DNA from: Holophagae bacterium
GTDB taxonomy: Bacteria; Acidobacteriota; Holophagae; Acanthopleuribacterales; Acanthopleuribacteraceae
Assembly: GCA_029263455.1 (NCBI GenBank)
Contig: JAJCXM010000004.1
Coordinates: 124,001 to 188,000, forward strand
Direction of reading: 5' to 3'
Length of the DNA stretch: 64,000 nucleotides
Under the pieces are notes generated by a model. The model had not been told where the DNA came from and ran no database searches. It worked only from the letters and a program-made list of their open reading frames with translations. The translations under genes were made by a program, and so were the position numbers. Each line of letters starts with the position of its first letter. Position 1 is the first letter of the stretch. Positions 9,580 to 34,871 of this stretch are shown one piece after another.

Positions 9580-11772
9580 ATGTTGATAGGCGTGAAACAC
9601 CACTTTCCCGAACCTGCCATCTTTATTTTTGATGACCGCGACCTACGGTTATACAAGGTTGACGGTTCAGAAGTCGAGCTTCGCCCGCAAGTTGCAGAGT
9701 TCCTTAACACCCTGATGGCCGCCTACCCACAGTCGGTTTCAAAATCAGACCTAATAAGCGCCGTTTGGGGCGAAACAAATGTCAGCGACCAAAGTCTTTC
9801 GCTATGTGTCAGTGAAATCAGAAAGGCGCTTGCAGATGACCCGCGCAAGCCAACCTACATCAAGACCATACCCAAGCGTGGCTACCAATGGCTGTGTCCT
9901 ACAACCCAGGAGAACACATCACAAGATCAAGCCCCGGAACCAATTATCAGCCCATCGATTCAGGTCCCTGAACCACATAAACCTAGAGGATGGCAACGAT
10001 GGTTGAGCGCCGTCTTAATCACCATCCTCATTGCCTCTGCCGTTACCTGGATTCAAAAACAGAAATCCATGCCGAACGAAGAGGCCATTGAGTATGACGG
10101 CTCTCAACTCGTGGCCATCATGCCATTTTCGAATCAAACAGGCGATCAGTCCTTAGATTGGACCAGCATTGGACTGGCCGAAATGGTACGCGGAAATTTC
10201 GAACAAATTGAGGCCATCGAAACGGTTCCATTGGAACGGATTCTGGCAGCTCAAACGTCGTTAGATCAAATGCCGGACCTTAAACAAGCGAGCGCCAAAC
10301 AGGCCATGGCCTGGTGTGACTTTATGCGTTGCAGTGCTGTTGCTGTAACCCAACTGGTGACAGACGATAGTGGCTACGTTCTGGAAAGTCGGTTGATTAT
10401 GCGATCAGGTTCAGAGACAACGCGTGTTGCACGCGGACCTTCATTGATGGCAACGACTTCGGATCTCTCTCAGCAATTGATTAAAAGGTGGGTACCTACC
10501 CAACCCATCACTGAATTTGTGGATGAATATTCGGACGACCCACATCTTAATGTCACTTACGCAACCGGCATCCATAAAATGGCGCTTGAAGGGCCAAGAG
10601 AAGCCCTGCCTTACTTTGAAAGTTGTCTTGATCAAAATGCAACCTTTCATTGGGCACGATTCAAATTGGCTAAGTGCCTGAGACTCTTAGGCGAACCCGA
10701 CCTCGCAAGTGAACACGTCACTCATTTGCTCAAAGAAGCAAAGCCAGGAACTGAGCTATATGCTGAGGCACTGGGCCTTATGTCTGTTCTTTGTTTTGAC
10801 CAAACCCAATTCGAACAGTCGGCGGAATATGTCCGCAGAGCGCTGGATATCTATGCGGACCTGGGCGCCCATTTAGGCATGTCCATTTGTATCGGCCAAC
10901 TTGGCTACATCGAATACGCGCGCGACAATCTCGCCGATGCGGCAGCCCTGTTAGAAGCTTGTTATCAAATGGTGCTTACAACGGGCGACCGTCTTACCGA
11001 AGCCAATGTGGTGAATAACCTTGCCATTATTGAATGGGCCAATGGCAATATAGACAAATCACTCCAGTACAATGAATATGCCTTGACGGTCTTCAATAAA
11101 TACGGCAGTCAGCCTGGCGTTGCTTTAATGACGGGCAATATTGGCGCCATAAGCATGAGCGCAGGCAGAATTGAAGCGGCTCGTCCCTATCTCATCAAGG
11201 GCCTCGATTTGTATCGCCAGCTAGGTGATGAAGAAGGCCTAAACCGCGCCTTACTCAACCTCTCGATCCTAAAATCATACGACCAGGACCTGACAGCCTC
11301 CATCTCTTTTGCAAATGAAGGACTCGAGATCTCTCAGAAGATTGGTAATACCCACATGGAGATTCAGTTTGTCTACTTGCTAATCAAACTCACGGCAGGA
11401 ATGGGCGATTTTACCGAGGCCAATAACCTAATTCAAACATTTCAAAGCAAAGTATCAAAAATGACCGAATTACCCGATCTACAAAATCTATTCACTGCTG
11501 CCGCTGTTTACGCGCATATTAGACAGGGCCATTTAGACAAAGCTCAAGCCAGTTATGCAACGTTATCTGTCGATTATCTCAATCAGAACGTGCAAGGTAT
11601 TTTCCTTCGATCACTGCTGGCCTTCTCAAAACGTGATCAAGCTGATGCCATGGCGGCCATTGACACGGCCATCGAAGTTGCTGACGGCGATTGGAAGTCT
11701 TTATTAACCAGCTACCGCGACGCTTACCAACAGCAAGAAATGCCCCAGCTCGCCTTTGTCGCTTATAACTAA
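9580..11772 (+). CDS. Winged-helix (ToxR/CadC-type) membrane regulator with TPR sensor domain
   Basis: About 730 residues in three parts. The N-terminal OmpR/CadC-type winged helix (to about residue 105) includes ELRPQVAEFLNTLM, VSKSDLISAVWGETNVSDQS, LSLCVSEIRKALADD and the wing YIKTIPKRGYQWLC. A single membrane helix follows (WLSAVLITILIASAVTWI). The C-terminal half starts with a TolB-like segment (VAIMPFSNQTGDQSLDWTSI) and continues as TPR helices (for example NNLAIIEWANGNIDKSLQYN). Proteins of this build bind DNA from the membrane and sense with the outer part; the target here is unknown. The start is uncertain: ATG 9580, TTG 9556 and GTG 9592 are all possible with weak ribosome sites. Confidence 0.85.
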   Translation: MLIGVKHHFPEPAIFIFDDRDLRLYKVDGSEVELRPQVAEFLNTLMAAYPQSVSKSDLISAVWGETNVSDQSLSLCVSEIRKALADDPRKPTYIKTIPKRGYQWLCPTTQENTSQDQAPEPIISPSIQVPEPHKPRGWQRWLSAVLITILIASAVTWIQKQKSMPNEEAIEYDGSQLVAIMPFSNQTGDQSLDWTSIGLAEMVRGNFEQIEAIETVPLERILAAQTSLDQMPDLKQASAKQAMAWCDFMRCSAVAVTQLVTDDSGYVLESRLIMRSGSETTRVARGPSLMATTSDLSQQLIKRWVPTQPITEFVDEYSDDPHLNVTYATGIHKMALEGPREALPYFESCLDQNATFHWARFKLAKCLRLLGEPDLASEHVTHLLKEAKPGTELYAEALGLMSVLCFDQTQFEQSAEYVRRALDIYADLGAHLGMSICIGQLGYIEYARDNLADAAALLEACYQMVLTTGDRLTEANVVNNLAIIEWANGNIDKSLQYNEYALTVFNKYGSQPGVALMTGNIGAISMSAGRIEAARPYLIKGLDLYRQLGDEEGLNRALLNLSILKSYDQDLTASISFANEGLEISQKIGNTHMEIQFVYLLIKLTAGMGDFTEANNLIQTFQSKVSKMTELPDLQNLFTAAAVYAHIRQGHLDKAQASYATLSVDYLNQNVQGIFLRSLLAFSKRDQADAMAAIDTAIEVADGDWKSLLTSYRDAYQQQEMPQLAFVAYN

Positions 11773-29155: not shown

Positions 29156-29797
29156 TTATTTTGCTTTTGCCCGTAGCATGACCGCAACGCGCCGATTCAG
29201 GGCTCGCCCCGACTGGTTCTCATTGCTAGCAATGGGATCCGATTCACCATAGCCCATCGATACCATGCGTATTGGATCTACGCCACGGCCCACCATATAG
29301 TTCAATACCGCTTTTGCGCGACGTTCGGATAACGTCTGATTGTGTGTCTCGCTGCCAGTGCTATCCGTATGGCCTTGCACAATAATGGCCGTCTTCGGGA
29401 AGTCATTGAGCACGGTCGTCGTATTTTGAAGCGTTTGTTTTGACGTCGCCGTCAAGGTTGAAGAGTCGATCGCGAACAGTAAATCTGAATCAAAGTGGAT
29501 CAAAAGCGTGTCATCACTTACACGTTCAACGCGGGTCCCAGGTATGCGAGCGATCTTTTCTTCCTGAGCGTCCATATAAACGCCGATCCCGCCACCGACA
29601 ACAGCTCCAATCGCCGCTCTGGCTAGAATCTCATCCGCTTCTCGTTTACCATCTGCAACGGAGAAGAGGGCACCAACGGCCGCCCCTATTGCGGCGCCTT
29701 TGACGGTATTATCACGCGAGGTGGTGTAAGGTCCGCGTGCGGCACAGCCGGCAAGCAAGACAACGGCAAAAACATAAGCCAATTCATTTTTAAACAT
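29156..29797 (-). CDS. OmpA-family outer-membrane lipoprotein
   Basis: A 213-residue lipoprotein. The signal peptide ends in the lipobox LLAGC (Cys18). A glycine-zipper segment (AAIGAAVGALFS and AAIGAVVGGGIGVYMDA) follows, as in OmpA/Pal relatives of the YiaD type. The C-terminal OmpA domain shows LLFAIDSSTLT, IIVQGHTDSTGSETHNQTLS and RRAKAVLNYM with the late ALNRRVAVML, which would bind the peptidoglycan diaminopimelate. GGGAG precedes the ATG by seven bases. It stands alone, with a spacer to mgtE. Confidence 0.95.
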   Translation of the reverse strand: MFKNELAYVFAVVLLAGCAARGPYTTSRDNTVKGAAIGAAVGALFSVADGKREADEILARAAIGAVVGGGIGVYMDAQEEKIARIPGTRVERVSDDTLLIHFDSDLLFAIDSSTLTATSKQTLQNTTTVLNDFPKTAIIVQGHTDSTGSETHNQTLSERRAKAVLNYMVGRGVDPIRMVSMGYGESDPIASNENQSGRALNRRVAVMLRAKAK

Positions 29798-29997: not shown

Positions 29998-30027
29998 TTG
30001 ACAACATTTCGTAGGCATCTGTAACAT
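29998..30027 (+). promoter_or_regulatory. Promoter of the first IPTL-CTERM-like gene
   Basis: A perfect TTGACA (29998-30003) with TAACAT (30022-30027) 18 bases downstream, 41 bases before the TTG start. The paralogous gene at 34110 has the same TTGACA-18-TAA layout, followed by a similar A/T-rich stretch, which supports both. Confidence 0.65.
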
Positions 30028-30067: not shown

Positions 30068-30826
30068 TTGAAACGAGTTATTTATTGTATATTACTGTCA
30101 TGTTTTATGGTTTCTGCACAGGACGATCAATCGGACGGAGCGACAACCCCATCTAATCGTAACAATTCGGCACCCAGTGTGCGCATCGGCGACTCGAATA
30201 GAGGACCCGGACTGGCTCCAACGACTTGGGGATTCATTGCTCAATATTCGGGCACAGCATATGGTACGGGTTACTTTCCGTTTTCCATCGATGGTTCCTA
30301 TCTTGGAACAAATTCAATCTATGGAATTACATTTAACTACGTACCCACCTATATAAACGATCTACGAGCGGTCTATGCCTTTGACGTTTCAGGACTGATG
30401 GATGGCGGTGGACCCACTTGGTCAAGCTTCATGTTTGATACGCGCGAGACGCCACCCGTCGGTACCGTTAACAGCGCCGCATTCGCCAACATAGCACTGA
30501 CCACGGACGGCACAAATTTCGCCCTCGAAGGTCTTTCCTTATTTTCAGGCAACGGGGCTAATCTAGACATATTCGACGCCGAAGACTTGGAAGATGGCGC
30601 CCCATTTGCAAATCCAGCTCTGGCATTTACAGGAAATAACCCGCTCATTGGCTCCATGGCAATCTCGTCTGGGACCATAATCCCTATCAATTTTGACGTA
30701 ACAAATGCCGTTCGCGGCGATATTGGACCCGTCATCCCAACCTTGGGTAATGTGGGGCTTATCGTGTTTGTGACCTTATTGGCTGGCGTCGGTCTAGTGA
30801 TACTGCGCCGCAATCGTATTTCTTAA
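30068..30826 (+). CDS. Secreted protein with IPTL-CTERM-like sorting tail, copy 1
   Basis: About 252 residues: signal peptide (MKRVIYCILLSCFMVSAQ), a low-charge beta-rich domain and a C-terminal sorting-type tail, IPTLGNVGLIVFVTLLAGVG ending in LRRNRIS. Tails of the IPTLxxWG-helix-RR type are recognised by exosortase XrtH in other bacteria; here the tryptophan position is V, so the link is an inference. No sortase gene is in the window. The TTG at 30068 is chosen because GGAG precedes it and because the paralogue at 34110 has the same ATGGAGT-then-TTG start and near-equal length (252 versus 253). Earlier ATGs give an N-terminus without a signal peptide. The domain's function is unknown. Confidence 0.82.
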   Translation: MKRVIYCILLSCFMVSAQDDQSDGATTPSNRNNSAPSVRIGDSNRGPGLAPTTWGFIAQYSGTAYGTGYFPFSIDGSYLGTNSIYGITFNYVPTYINDLRAVYAFDVSGLMDGGGPTWSSFMFDTRETPPVGTVNSAAFANIALTTDGTNFALEGLSLFSGNGANLDIFDAEDLEDGAPFANPALAFTGNNPLIGSMAISSGTIIPINFDVTNAVRGDIGPVIPTLGNVGLIVFVTLLAGVGLVILRRNRIS

Positions 30827-30847
30827 ATAACAAGCTTAATCACAGGC

Positions 30848-30884
30848 AAAGGGTGGGACGAAGCGTCTCACCCTTTTTCTTTTT
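30848..30884 (+). terminator. Rho-independent terminator after IPTL-like copy 1
   Basis: A 12-bp stem (AAAGGGTGGGAC with GTCTCACCCTTT, one G-T pair) with a five-base loop (GAAGC) is followed by TTCTTTTT. It begins 22 bases after the stop and separates this gene from the Spy-like operon. Confidence 0.9.
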
Positions 30885-30959
30885 GGTCACCTATAATTGG
30901 CCAACTTCGGCTGAAGAGCCCAACGTTACCTACCTTCGTTTTGAAAAAGGGCACTACCT

Positions 30960-31433
30960 ATGATGCCAATAACATTGATGACGTTATTAGTTTCTTTGCA
31001 AGTTGACACGCCAACCACTAAAAAGAATATGGGTCGCTTGCCGGTTGCTTGGTGGGATCAGGCAGAACTATGCCAACAACTCGGCATTAGGGAAGATCAG
31101 CGCGTTGAATTCGCTGAAAAACTTAACCACCTGCAAATGTCTTATCAAATTGCGCAAACGAAACTTAATGACGCACGACAACGACAGTCAAACGACATGT
31201 TTGATCCCACCATTGATGCCCAAACTATTGAAACCCTTCACCGGCAGGACATCTCCACAGCTAGTGCGGAAATACTGAGCCTAAACTTTCAGGCACGTTT
31301 GTTTGTACGGAACGCACTTAATGCTAACCAGCTCCAAAAACTCCAGATTGAAGCTCCTCGATTTTTTTCGGCCAAATGGTTCAAGCGCCCGCGAAACAAA
31401 ACCTATAAAGGTAAGGTGATTGAAAAAAAATGA
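30960..31433 (+). CDS. Spy/CpxP-like small periplasmic protein
   Basis: A 157-residue protein with a short hydrophobic leader (MMPITLMTLLVSLQ), then almost entirely helical sequence rich in Q, N and L: LCQQLGIREDQRVEFAEKLN, QIAQTKLNDARQRQSNDM, NALNANQLQKLQIEAPRFFS. The spacing and the LxxxQ-type repeats resemble the Spy/CpxP periplasmic chaperone and metal-sensor group, but identity is weak. Its stop overlaps the next ATG (ATGA), so it starts a coupled operon with the TPR and sulfatase-like genes. It may act as a chaperone or sensor for that system, which is inference only. Confidence 0.6.
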   Translation: MMPITLMTLLVSLQVDTPTTKKNMGRLPVAWWDQAELCQQLGIREDQRVEFAEKLNHLQMSYQIAQTKLNDARQRQSNDMFDPTIDAQTIETLHRQDISTASAEILSLNFQARLFVRNALNANQLQKLQIEAPRFFSAKWFKRPRNKTYKGKVIEKK

Positions 31434-32101
31434 CTTGGATGCTGTGTATGATTCTTGCCGGAGACGTTTATTACGAGCGCCCAATTGATGCCATCAATGA
31501 CCTCGCCTTATTGCAACATCAAATTTCCGCAAATGCCCTTAACGAAATTGTGTGGCTACAAAAGATACAACACTACACATCACTGGCCGAATTACCCAAA
31601 GCAGCAGAAATCGTAAGCCAGCTGACGTTAACCTTTCCCAATCAACCGGTTTTCCAAGAAGCCCACATGATCATCCTTAGTCATCAGGGCCATCATGACC
31701 AAGCAATCGAACAAGGCGAAATCCTACTCTTAAGACACCCCGACTATTTAACCGTCCGCCAAAACTTGGCCAGGATCTACTTTCAGTCTGGCGAACGTGT
31801 GAAGGGCGTCAATTTATTGATTGCGGCGCTGGAGAAAGGTCCAATACGGACCGCCGATTGGGAAATTCTACTGCGCCAATTAGCACTCGCGACGCCCGAT
31901 CCGATCAAATTGGTCGAACAGCTAAGCAAGAAGGCAGCGCTTCATCCCGAACATTTAAGCCTTAAATACGTCACCATGGTGGTCTGTGTGAGGTTCGGTC
32001 TCTATGCTCAAGCCCAGCAAATCCTTTTGGAGAATCCTAAACTGTCCGATCACAGCGATCTAAAGAGTTTTGTGGCTCAAGCTGCATCAAGCAATCCTTA
32101 G
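31430..32101 (+). CDS. TPR-repeat protein
   Basis: About 223 residues, largely helical, with TPR-like units such as AEIVSQLTLTFPNQPVFQEA, DQAIEQGEILLLRHPDYLT and LARIYFQSGERVKGVNLLIA. A short hydrophobic start (MTWMLCMILAGD) may be a signal peptide. It starts in an ATGA overlap with the Spy-like gene and its stop lies just before the ribosome site of the sulfatase-like lipoprotein, so the three are one operon. TPR units usually bind partner proteins, and the next gene carries similar TPR units, so both may work on the same substrate. Confidence 0.75.
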   Translation: MTWMLCMILAGDVYYERPIDAINDLALLQHQISANALNEIVWLQKIQHYTSLAELPKAAEIVSQLTLTFPNQPVFQEAHMIILSHQGHHDQAIEQGEILLLRHPDYLTVRQNLARIYFQSGERVKGVNLLIAALEKGPIRTADWEILLRQLALATPDPIKLVEQLSKKAALHPEHLSLKYVTMVVCVRFGLYAQAQQILLENPKLSDHSDLKSFVAQAASSNP

Positions 32102-32111
32102 AGGAGCATCC

Positions 32112-33974
32112 TTGAAAATTTTCTTTGCCGCTGTTTGTTTACTGCTGACTTTGGCTTGCGGGCAGAAAGATGATCTGCAGATTGAGAATGTCGTTCTTGT
32201 GACCTTGGATACGACTCGGGCAGATGCCATTGGCGCTTATGGCAATCGTTTTGTGCAAACACCGGTTCTAGATGAGCTCGCCGAGGGCGGTCACCTATTT
32301 GAGAAGTGCTACACACATGCACCGATCACATTGCCCTCCCATTGCAGTATCATGACCGGCAAGATCCCAACCGAGCACGGTGTCCACAACAATGTGTCCT
32401 ATGTTCTTGCTAACGACAACGTCACCCTGGCCGAGTTATTGAATCAAGCGGGTTTTGCCACTGGCGCATTCATTAGTTCGTTCATTCTCGACCACAAATT
32501 TGGACTCGACCAAGGGTTTGATATCTATGAAGACCGCATCGTGCATTATGCGCCCGAGCGTAAAAAGAACGAGATCGTAACCAGGCGCGCCGAACAAACC
32601 ATCGATCTGGCTCTGGAATGGATGCAGCACCAAGAGGGGCCCTTTTTTAGCTGGATCCACCTCTACGATGCCCATTGGCCCTACAACCCGCCACTGCCCT
32701 TTAGGCAAGCCTATGCAGACAACCCGTATTTTGGAGAATTGGCTTATGTTGATTACCAACTGGGACGACTCGTTCGCCACTTAAAACAACAGGGTATTTA
32801 CGAAAAAACGCTCATTGTTGTGACGGGAGACCACGGCGAATCATTCAAAGAACATGGGGAAAATACCCATGGATTCTTTTGTTATGGCGCGACAACCCAC
32901 GTACCGCTCATTCTTTCTCAACCCATCTATGGCACTGCCGGTCAACGCTTTTCACATCGAGTCGCCAGCACAGATTTGTTCCCGAGTACGCTTAAAATCC
33001 TGGGCTTAAAGAGCGAATCAACAAATGGTTTTCAGTTAGATAGCCGCAACGAGAGGGAAATATATGCCGAAGCCATCATTCCTCAAGAAGATTTTTACCT
33101 AGCGCCTGTTCATTCAATAAAAGACGACCAGCACAGCTTCTATTACAGCTCCACCTTCGAGCTTTACGACACCGTTAATGACCCGTTGGAAACGATTAAT
33201 CTGGTCGAGCAGCACCCTGATCTGGTGCGCACATTCAAGTTGCGAATTGAGCAATTACTCGAACAGGCCAAGGCTTCTGAAACCACGATTTTAGATCAGG
33301 AAAGTATCGAACTACTTCGGAGCTTAGGCTACGTGGCTGACGGCGGCGTTTCCACGCCCGGGGATACGGCTTCCTTTACCTACAAGTCGCCTCTCGATTC
33401 GGTCAAGATGTATAGCGAATTAATGTACTTACGGCAATTTGAAAAGAGTTATCCATTCAAGACTATTGAAGGTCTTCGAGACCTCGTGAAGGCGAACCCA
33501 GAACAGGTCATTCTGCGCCGTGACCTTGGTCGCCACGAAGCTATGGCGGGCCATGAAGACGAAGCGATCCTGAATTTGAAGCAAGCGGCGACTTTAAGAC
33601 CTGAGGACGCGCGCTTACACACATTTTTGGGCCTCGGCTATCATCGATTTGGGCACTTCGAGAAGAGCATCCAAGAGTTCAATCTCGCTTTGACAATCGA
33701 CGAAGATCAGACGATTGCTTTCTACAATATGGGACTCTCATATATGGCTCTAGATGATGTTGATTTGGCCGTCAAATGCTTTGAGAAAGTTCTCGAACGG
33801 AACCCTGAAGATATTTACACACTGAGTAACTTGGCATTTATTTACCTAGAGCACATCAAGGATCTAAATCAGGCCAGCCAATATATTGATCAGGCCATCG
33901 CGCTCAATGATCACCACCCTCTCATACTCGCTAATAAGGCGGCCATAGACCATGCGTCGCGACCCTCCAATTAA
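32112..33974 (+). CDS. Sulfatase-like (alkaline phosphatase superfamily) lipoprotein with TPR tail
   Basis: About 620 residues. The signal peptide ends in a lipobox, LLTLAC, predicting an outer-envelope lipoprotein. The hydrolase domain shows VVLVTLDTTRADAIGAYG (metal Asp), THAPITLPSHCSIMTGKIPT (nucleophile region) and VVTGDHGESFKEHGENTHGF (metal site). Where sulfatases have CxPxR the sequence is TLPSH, so threonine replaces the formylglycine cysteine. The last 170 residues are TPRs (LHTFLGLGYHRFGHFEKSIQ, AFYNMGLSYMALDDVDLAVK). TTG 32112 follows GAGGAG by five bases. The substrate could be a phospho- or sulfo-ester on a glycan or lipid. Confidence 0.88.
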   Translation: MKIFFAAVCLLLTLACGQKDDLQIENVVLVTLDTTRADAIGAYGNRFVQTPVLDELAEGGHLFEKCYTHAPITLPSHCSIMTGKIPTEHGVHNNVSYVLANDNVTLAELLNQAGFATGAFISSFILDHKFGLDQGFDIYEDRIVHYAPERKKNEIVTRRAEQTIDLALEWMQHQEGPFFSWIHLYDAHWPYNPPLPFRQAYADNPYFGELAYVDYQLGRLVRHLKQQGIYEKTLIVVTGDHGESFKEHGENTHGFFCYGATTHVPLILSQPIYGTAGQRFSHRVASTDLFPSTLKILGLKSESTNGFQLDSRNEREIYAEAIIPQEDFYLAPVHSIKDDQHSFYYSSTFELYDTVNDPLETINLVEQHPDLVRTFKLRIEQLLEQAKASETTILDQESIELLRSLGYVADGGVSTPGDTASFTYKSPLDSVKMYSELMYLRQFEKSYPFKTIEGLRDLVKANPEQVILRRDLGRHEAMAGHEDEAILNLKQAATLRPEDARLHTFLGLGYHRFGHFEKSIQEFNLALTIDEDQTIAFYNMGLSYMALDDVDLAVKCFEKVLERNPEDIYTLSNLAFIYLEHIKDLNQASQYIDQAIALNDHHPLILANKAAIDHASRPSN

Positions 33975-34042
33975 TCTTGCTCCCGGGCAGTTCATTCTTG
34001 ACCTACCTAAATGTTATTTTTCGTAGACAATGCCCGGAATCA

Positions 34043-34072
34043 TTGACAAGAGCCATCGGCCGCGAATAAATG
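34043..34072 (+). promoter_or_regulatory. Promoter of the second IPTL-CTERM-like gene
   Basis: A perfect TTGACA (34043-34048) with a TAAATG box 18 bases on (34067-34072). The -10 match is weak by itself; the support is that spacing and following sequence parallel the promoter at 29998. It lies 37 bases before the TTG start. Confidence 0.5.
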
Positions 34073-34109
34073 TGTGATAATAGTGAACATTAATTGATGG
34101 AGTCTCCCG

Positions 34110-34871
34110 TTGAAATATCTAACTATTTTTCTACTCTTGTTCGCTGGTTTTGTGGTTCTTGCTCAAGATGACCAGCCCGACGATGATGCGAGAGCTACCT
34201 TTCGCAATAAACCGGCACCCAGTTTGGGCATCGGTCAACCGGGCCGTGGAGCTGGACTGGCCCCGACGACTTGGGGATTCGTTGCTCAATACTCAGGTAC
34301 GGCTTATGGAACCGGTTACTATGTTTTTGGTGTAGATCTCACCTCTGCCAGCACGAACTCGATTTACGGTTTGACATTTAATTACCCGACTATTTATGTC
34401 ACTGATTTACGCGCCGTGTACGCGTTTGATGTGTCTGGACTGATGGACGGCGGCGGACCTACCTGGTCAAGTTTCATGTTTGACACACGCGAAGCACCGG
34501 CCGTTGGCACGACGAACAGCATGGCATTCGCCAGTATCGCACTGACCACCGACGGGTCAAATTTCGCTCTCGAAGGACTTTCATTATTTGCAGGCAACGG
34601 AGCCAATCTGGACATCTTCGACGCCGAAGACCTCGAAGATGGTGCCCCATTTGCAAATCCAGCACTGGCATTTACTGGCAACAACCCGTTAATCGGCAGC
34701 ATGCCTATTTCGCAAGGTCAAATTATCCCCATCAATATTGACGTAACCAATGCCGTGCGCGGCGATATTGGACCGGCCGTACCAACATTAGGTAAAGCGG
34801 GACTTGTCATATTTGCCACTCTCCTAGCTGCTGCCGGTCTACTTTTGTTTCGACGTAATCGCCTTACTTAA
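34110..34871 (+). CDS. Secreted protein with IPTL-CTERM-like sorting tail, copy 2
   Basis: A 253-residue paralogue of the gene at 30068. The signal peptide is MKYLTIFLLLFAGFVVLAQ. The middle shows near-identical stretches, such as APTTWGF, AQYSGTAYGTGY, FDVSGLMDGGGPTWSSFMFD and IFDAEDLEDGAPFANPALAF. The tail is VPTLGKAGLVIFATLLAAAG, then LLLFRRNRLT. The TTG start follows GGAG and matches the start of copy 1. Cargo of this kind is sorted to the surface in families with PEP/IPTL tails; what it does there is unknown. The two copies flank the Spy-TPR-sulfatase operon, so tandem duplication with an insertion, or selection for two variants, is possible. Confidence 0.82.
   Translation: MKYLTIFLLLFAGFVVLAQDDQPDDDARATFRNKPAPSLGIGQPGRGAGLAPTTWGFVAQYSGTAYGTGYYVFGVDLTSASTNSIYGLTFNYPTIYVTDLRAVYAFDVSGLMDGGGPTWSSFMFDTREAPAVGTTNSMAFASIALTTDGSNFALEGLSLFAGNGANLDIFDAEDLEDGAPFANPALAFTGNNPLIGSMPISQGQIIPINIDVTNAVRGDIGPAVPTLGKAGLVIFATLLAAAGLLLFRRNRLT

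Follow-up and report, generated by a model that had tools for sequence, protein, structure and literature searches.

Among the described systems closest to the locus reported here is XrtH/IPTL-CTERM sorting (exosortase model TIGR04177, tail model TIGR04174). To our knowledge, the acceptor to which bacterial exosortases attach their cargo is largely unknown. A TPR protein, PrsT (TIGR02917), also accompanies another exosortase system, at XrtA/PEP-CTERM loci. Known members of the Spy/CpxP/ZraP/CnrX fold act in envelope stress or metal response. In Methylomirabilis lanthanidiphila the S-layer consists of an IPTL-CTERM protein (PMC8671808), so that an abundant surface cargo is plausible. In Haloferax, PssA and PssD were tied to the archaeosortase ArtA by gene neighbourhood and later proved to be required both for cleaving the cargo and for attaching the lipid (PMC7157517). 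This is the nearest precedent for the logic followed here, as an accessory phospholipid enzyme was linked to sorting through gene neighbourhood; there, however, it is the sortase's neighbour that produces the lipid acceptor, whereas here the neighbours are those of the cargo and other enzyme families are involved.

In this study, we describe a gene cluster in the genome of a Holophagae bacterium (G000; 6.25 Mb, 40 contigs, 95% complete), which belongs to an Acanthopleuribacteraceae-type family of the Acidobacteriota that also includes Sulfidibacter corallicola (G003) and Acanthopleuribacter pedis (G006). The family comparison comprised seven genomes (G000-G006, with G001 from the same genus as G000) and the wider survey 396 Acidobacteriota genomes. 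The loci compared are labelled L128 (S. corallicola), L129 (the dolphin-oral MAG DOLJORAL78_46_51), L130 (G001), L170 (G240) and L229 (G357). The window, i.e. the whole stretch of 64,000 nucleotides analysed, contains the following features:

29998 to 30027, plus strand: promoter-like TTGACA-18-TAACAT, 5' of cargo A; the number of such sites is not above chance
30068 to 30826, plus strand: cargo A, secreted beta-rich protein with an IPTL-CTERM tail (VIPTLGNVGLIVFVTLLAGVGLVILRRNRIS); TIGR04174 23.4 bits
30848 to 30876, plus strand: weak terminator-like hairpin after cargo A, a 13-bp stem followed by a T-rich tract
30960 to 31433, plus strand: P3, Spy/CpxP/ZraP-like small periplasmic protein; AF2 four-helix hairpin
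31430 to 32101, plus strand: P4, periplasmic TPR protein; TPR_19 42 bits; orthologues in L128 and L129
32112 to 33974, plus strand: P5, 'sulfatase-like' enzyme of the AP superfamily with TPRs at its C-terminus; probable lipoprotein; nucleophile position occupied by Thr (ITLPSH)
34110 to 34871, plus strand: cargo B, paralogue of cargo A with an IPTL-CTERM tail (AVPTLGKAGLVIFATLLAAAGLLLFRRNRLT); TIGR04174 24.6 bits

An earlier reading of the same DNA (the sequence-only reading) had described two close paralogues on either side of a three-gene operon, and this arrangement was confirmed. P3, P4 and P5 are read as one operon because P3 and P4 overlap by 4 bp and P4 and P5 are only 10 bp apart. Cargos A and B both start with TTG, are 252 and 253 amino acids long and are 73% identical. 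In each, a signal peptide and a body precede the (I/V)PTLG-helix-RRNR tail that had been proposed, and both tails score above the NCBIfam cut-off for IPTL_CTERM (TIGR04174, 20.5 bits), with a hydrophobic helix and a basic end following; both are slightly under the Pfam cut-off for IPTL-CTERM. Between the two genes dN was 0.19 and dS 1.25 (core dN/dS about 0.08), and their flanks align with each other, as expected of old duplicates. Judged by these values, the pair is an old duplication with both copies under purifying selection. The AF2 model of the cargo was poor (mean pLDDT 51.5). Matching promoters and terminators had also been noted for the two genes, and these were found for cargo A only: the cargo B counterpart, TTGACA-18-TAAATG, fails the promoter scan, and no hairpin was flagged after cargo B. 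The region holds seven promoter-like sites against 6.9 expected by chance, and six terminator-like hairpins against 4.8. On the minus strand, a short way 5' of cargo A (window 29156-29797), lies a gene for an OmpA-like lipoprotein, by eye of the peptidoglycan-binding type.

IPTL tails above the TIGR04174 cut-off occur at no fewer than 14 places in G000, spread over many contigs, and are present in all seven family genomes. A search with the Pfam exosortase model PF09721 found none in G000, G001 and G002 and one in each of G003-G006. A family exosortase profile built from these four sequences found orthologues in 7/7 genomes, and the conclusion that G000 has no exosortase was rejected; a whole-genome PF09721 search can thus report 'no exosortase' where one exists and a family profile finds it. 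The search for an exosortase elsewhere in the genome, as the sequence-only reading had advised, yielded P0006 (C14:1360-1947), which is on a different contig from the cargo cluster. Its TIGR04177 (XrtH) score of 77.7 bits is the best among all exosortase models yet under the cut-off of 86, and it is therefore termed XrtH-like only. It carries the TIGR04178 superfamily signature (48.6 bits, cut-off 23) and reaches only 20.5 bits with PF09721. On the strength of its profile matches and of Cys96, Arg137 and His157, which are invariant in the family exosortases of the seven genomes, P0006 is assigned as an exosortase. The family motifs are NNCNGxYES and FFHETFW, as against NGCNGVEAM and HTVIWQ in other Acidobacteriota. 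G000 thus resembles XrtH/IPTL-CTERM sorting in its tail class, the TIGR04178 signature, the Cys/Arg/His residues and the presence of midcut-by-XrtH-like proteins, but differs in that the family exosortase is under the XrtH cut-off and has altered motifs, and in the added Spy/TPR/enzyme module. The midcut-by-XrtH-like proteins (L024, L026, L027 and L028), which score under the model cut-off, have a mid-sequence IPTL tail and then further domains; three of them (L026, L027 and L028) lie at contig ends and are near-identical to one another. In 7/7 family genomes, the P0006 orthologue is followed by P0007, a membrane protein without a family match.

The TPR assignment of P4 was upheld by its TPR_19 match, and the Spy-like nature claimed for P3 was supported indirectly. 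P3 itself matches no family model in the Pfam and NCBIfam searches, and its homologues match CpxP, Spy, LTXXQ and Metal_resist models, all under cut-off. The AF2 model of P3 is a four-helix hairpin (pLDDT 81), and its PDB fold matches, none with a significant E-value, repeatedly include CnrX, ZraP, Spy and CpxP (TMt 0.5-0.75). P3 resembles the Spy/CpxP/ZraP chaperones in size and export signal and possibly in its predicted helical hairpin, but unlike them it is under every family cut-off and is paired with one cargo class.

P5 had been described as a lipoprotein sulfatase-like/TPR enzyme that may process glycans on the cargos. The first part largely held, as PF00884 (Sulfatase) is its best Pfam match (142.7 bits), TPRs are present, and the signal ends in Cys in 3/3 orthologues; with this lipoprotein-like end P5 is a probable lipoprotein, although its lipobox is non-canonical. 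The glycan-processing sulfatase was not supported. Known formylglycine maturation requires Cys or Ser in C/S-x-P-x-R, and P5 has T-L-P-S-H, so that sulfatase activity via formylglycine is unexpected. When P5 was aligned to solved sulfatases, the formylglycine position was Thr and the signature Arg was His. The nucleophile motif is T-L-P-S-H in all three operon-type P5 enzymes, T-L-V-A-H in the divergent type (both types are defined below) and T-[LT]-P-[SA]-H in family paralogues; ITLPSH, DTTR and DHGE, comprising the Thr and the metal Asp/His, are conserved across three P5 orthologues. P5 also scores 62.6 bits (cut-off 23) with PF01663, a family of Thr-nucleophile phosphodiesterases. That P5 is a true sulfatase removing sulfate from cargo glycans or from a surface polysaccharide would agree with the PF00884 match and with its PDB sequence matches, which are sulfatases, but is most improbable given the motif found in place of C/S-x-P-x-R and the PF01663 match. 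A pure glycan sulfatase identity was rejected on the nucleophile residue, and no link to glycans was found in this analysis. Instead, the Thr position points to P5 as a putative Thr-nucleophile phospho-enzyme.

EptA, MCR-1, LtaS and YejM use Thr as their nucleophile (PMC7576196), and PptA of Neisseria is a protein-modifying enzyme acting on pilin (PMC4010543). Like these enzymes, P5 belongs to the AP superfamily and has a Thr where the nucleophile is expected; unlike them, it lacks a multi-helix membrane domain, carries TPRs at its C-terminus and is probably anchored by a lipid. It is conceivable, albeit rather unlikely, that P5 transfers a phospho-group (e.g. phosphoethanolamine or a lipid phosphate) to the sorted proteins or to the XrtH acceptor, with a dedicated Spy-like chaperone. 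If so, the exosortase system would have a modification arm specific to its cargo, which would offer a handle on the acceptor of bacterial exosortases. The TPR parts of P4 and P5 match the PrsT model TIGR02917 with 19 and 49 bits, respectively, against a cut-off of 312, and the proteins are not orthologues of PrsT.

The sequence-only reading had drawn the linkage of cargo and module from gene order alone. The linkage exceeds gene order in one genome, since the grouping recurs in six Acidobacteriota genomes of three families. In S. corallicola M133 (L128), where the cluster lies at about 1.135-1.141 Mb of NZ_CP071793.1, the order is cargo - P3 - P4 - P5 - VOC protein - second IPTL protein. In L129 the cargo (9887-10645) is located within the operon, giving P3 - cargo - P4 - P5. 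A divergent arrangement (cargo <- P5 / P3-like ->) was found in G001, of the same genus, and in G240 and G357, of two other families; G240 and G357 encode XrtH-like exosortases, and that of G240 passes TIGR04177 (99.6 against 86). The advised synteny check of all five genes gave linkage of cargo and P3-P4-P5 in other genera and of P3, P5 and cargo in other families. An IPTL-type cargo was present at six of six loci with P3 beside P5, whereas an IPTL-type tail was present at none of about 56 P5-like loci without P3 (10 in the family with flanks of about 5 kb, 29 with flanks of about 1.5 kb and about 17 with flanks of about 5 kb) and at none of 18 P3-like loci without P5. Fisher's test for cargo presence (P3 and P5 versus P5 only) gave p of about 1e-7 to 2e-8, with the loci treated as independent, which by descent they are not fully. 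The G001 locus was noticed partly because its tail adjoined P5; searches with P3 or P5 led to the remaining relatives. Chance adjacency of cargo and module was rejected on these counts.

Functionless inheritance of neighbours, i.e. an old unbroken cluster with a tandem cargo duplication around it, could account for a few loci that are related to each other. It is nevertheless quite unlikely, as the neighbourhoods compared share no genes beyond cargo, P3, P4 and P5, the order varies, with the cargo outside, inside or divergent, but the same members are retained, and the linkage spans three families and is missing from the control loci. Cargo homologues occurring mostly without the operon, the pattern named earlier as speaking against the linkage, were not seen, in a comparison able to detect body homologues elsewhere down to about 30% identity; a single-sequence cargo search of the relatives missed even the S. 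corallicola cargo, and distant homologues may exist. XrtH and P3-like proteins co-occurred 14 times against 5.6 expected (p 3e-4) among the 396 genomes, which are related to each other, and this is not taken as main evidence. FG-GAP/UnbV_ASPIC (CRTAC1-like) proteins are encoded beside the divergent module in two families (L130:10455-12107 and L229:10014-11747), and are a possible further partner.

P5-like enzymes were found in 169 of the 396 Acidobacteriota genomes (E<=1e-100). Most have no cargo nearby, and the P5 family therefore does not require an IPTL cargo. A search started from P3-like matches alone led for the most part to generic Spy-like proteins with neither P5 nor cargo nearby. A. 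pedis, G004 and G005 have an exosortase and IPTL tails but lack the module (no convincing P3), which is thus not core sorting machinery. The linked P5s separate into two clades in a tree built from 65 catalytic domains, the operon type (support 100) and the divergent type (99); by the quick method used, a single origin of the linked P5s is neither shown nor excluded. A common body (E 1e-7 to 1e-12) is found in the divergent-type cargos; by eye, its WGDG...HTY pattern is reminiscent of PKD domains. Operon-type bodies match at E 9e-9 (G003-G002), 4e-4 (G000-G003) and 1e-3 (G000-G002), the homology of the G000 body being weak and marginal by hmmsearch against shuffles. No relation between operon-type and divergent-type bodies was detected by BLAST. 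Since the two P5 clades match two separate cargo bodies, each linked P5 clade has, as far as these alignments and the tree indicate, its own cargo family. These data also bear on a co-regulated envelope-stress or metal-response cluster serving joint envelope upkeep, in which the enzyme would not act on cargo or anchor. The Spy/CpxP/ZraP/CnrX-like fold of P3 and the many P5-like enzymes without cargo are in its favour, but each linked P5 clade retains its own cargo family across genera, and a cargo that can sit within the operon (L129) fits a partner better than a bystander; we regard such a cluster as possible but on the unlikely side.

Our preferred reading, for which belief and doubt are about evenly balanced, is that the module matures dedicated XrtH-type exosortase cargo in the periplasm. 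It keeps the sorting part of the module first suggested (IPTL tails, an XrtH-like exosortase and linkage across families) and drops the glycan sulfatase role. The cleavage, physical interaction, chemistry and order of steps that we propose would be as follows. Cargos A and B would be exported by Sec and then retained in the inner membrane through their IPTL tails. P3, as a dedicated Spy/CpxP-like protein, would keep the cargo soluble in the periplasm before or during cutting, and P4 and the TPR half of P5 would scaffold it. The XrtH-like exosortase (C14) would cut the cargo and probably join it to an acceptor, and the Thr-nucleophile domain of P5 may transfer or hydrolyse a phosphodiester on either the cargo or its anchor. 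Against the maturation module, the exosortase lies outside the cluster, and the loci number only six and are not independent by descent.

No description of a Spy/TPR/enzyme module with an XrtH system was found in the searched literature, which mostly excluded subscription papers. The results suggest a dedicated helper set for exosortase cargo, not previously described in the searchable literature. A conserved set of enzyme and chaperone accompanies specific cargo families, also in the cultured Sulfidibacter corallicola, and so provides named genes for the question of the acceptor.
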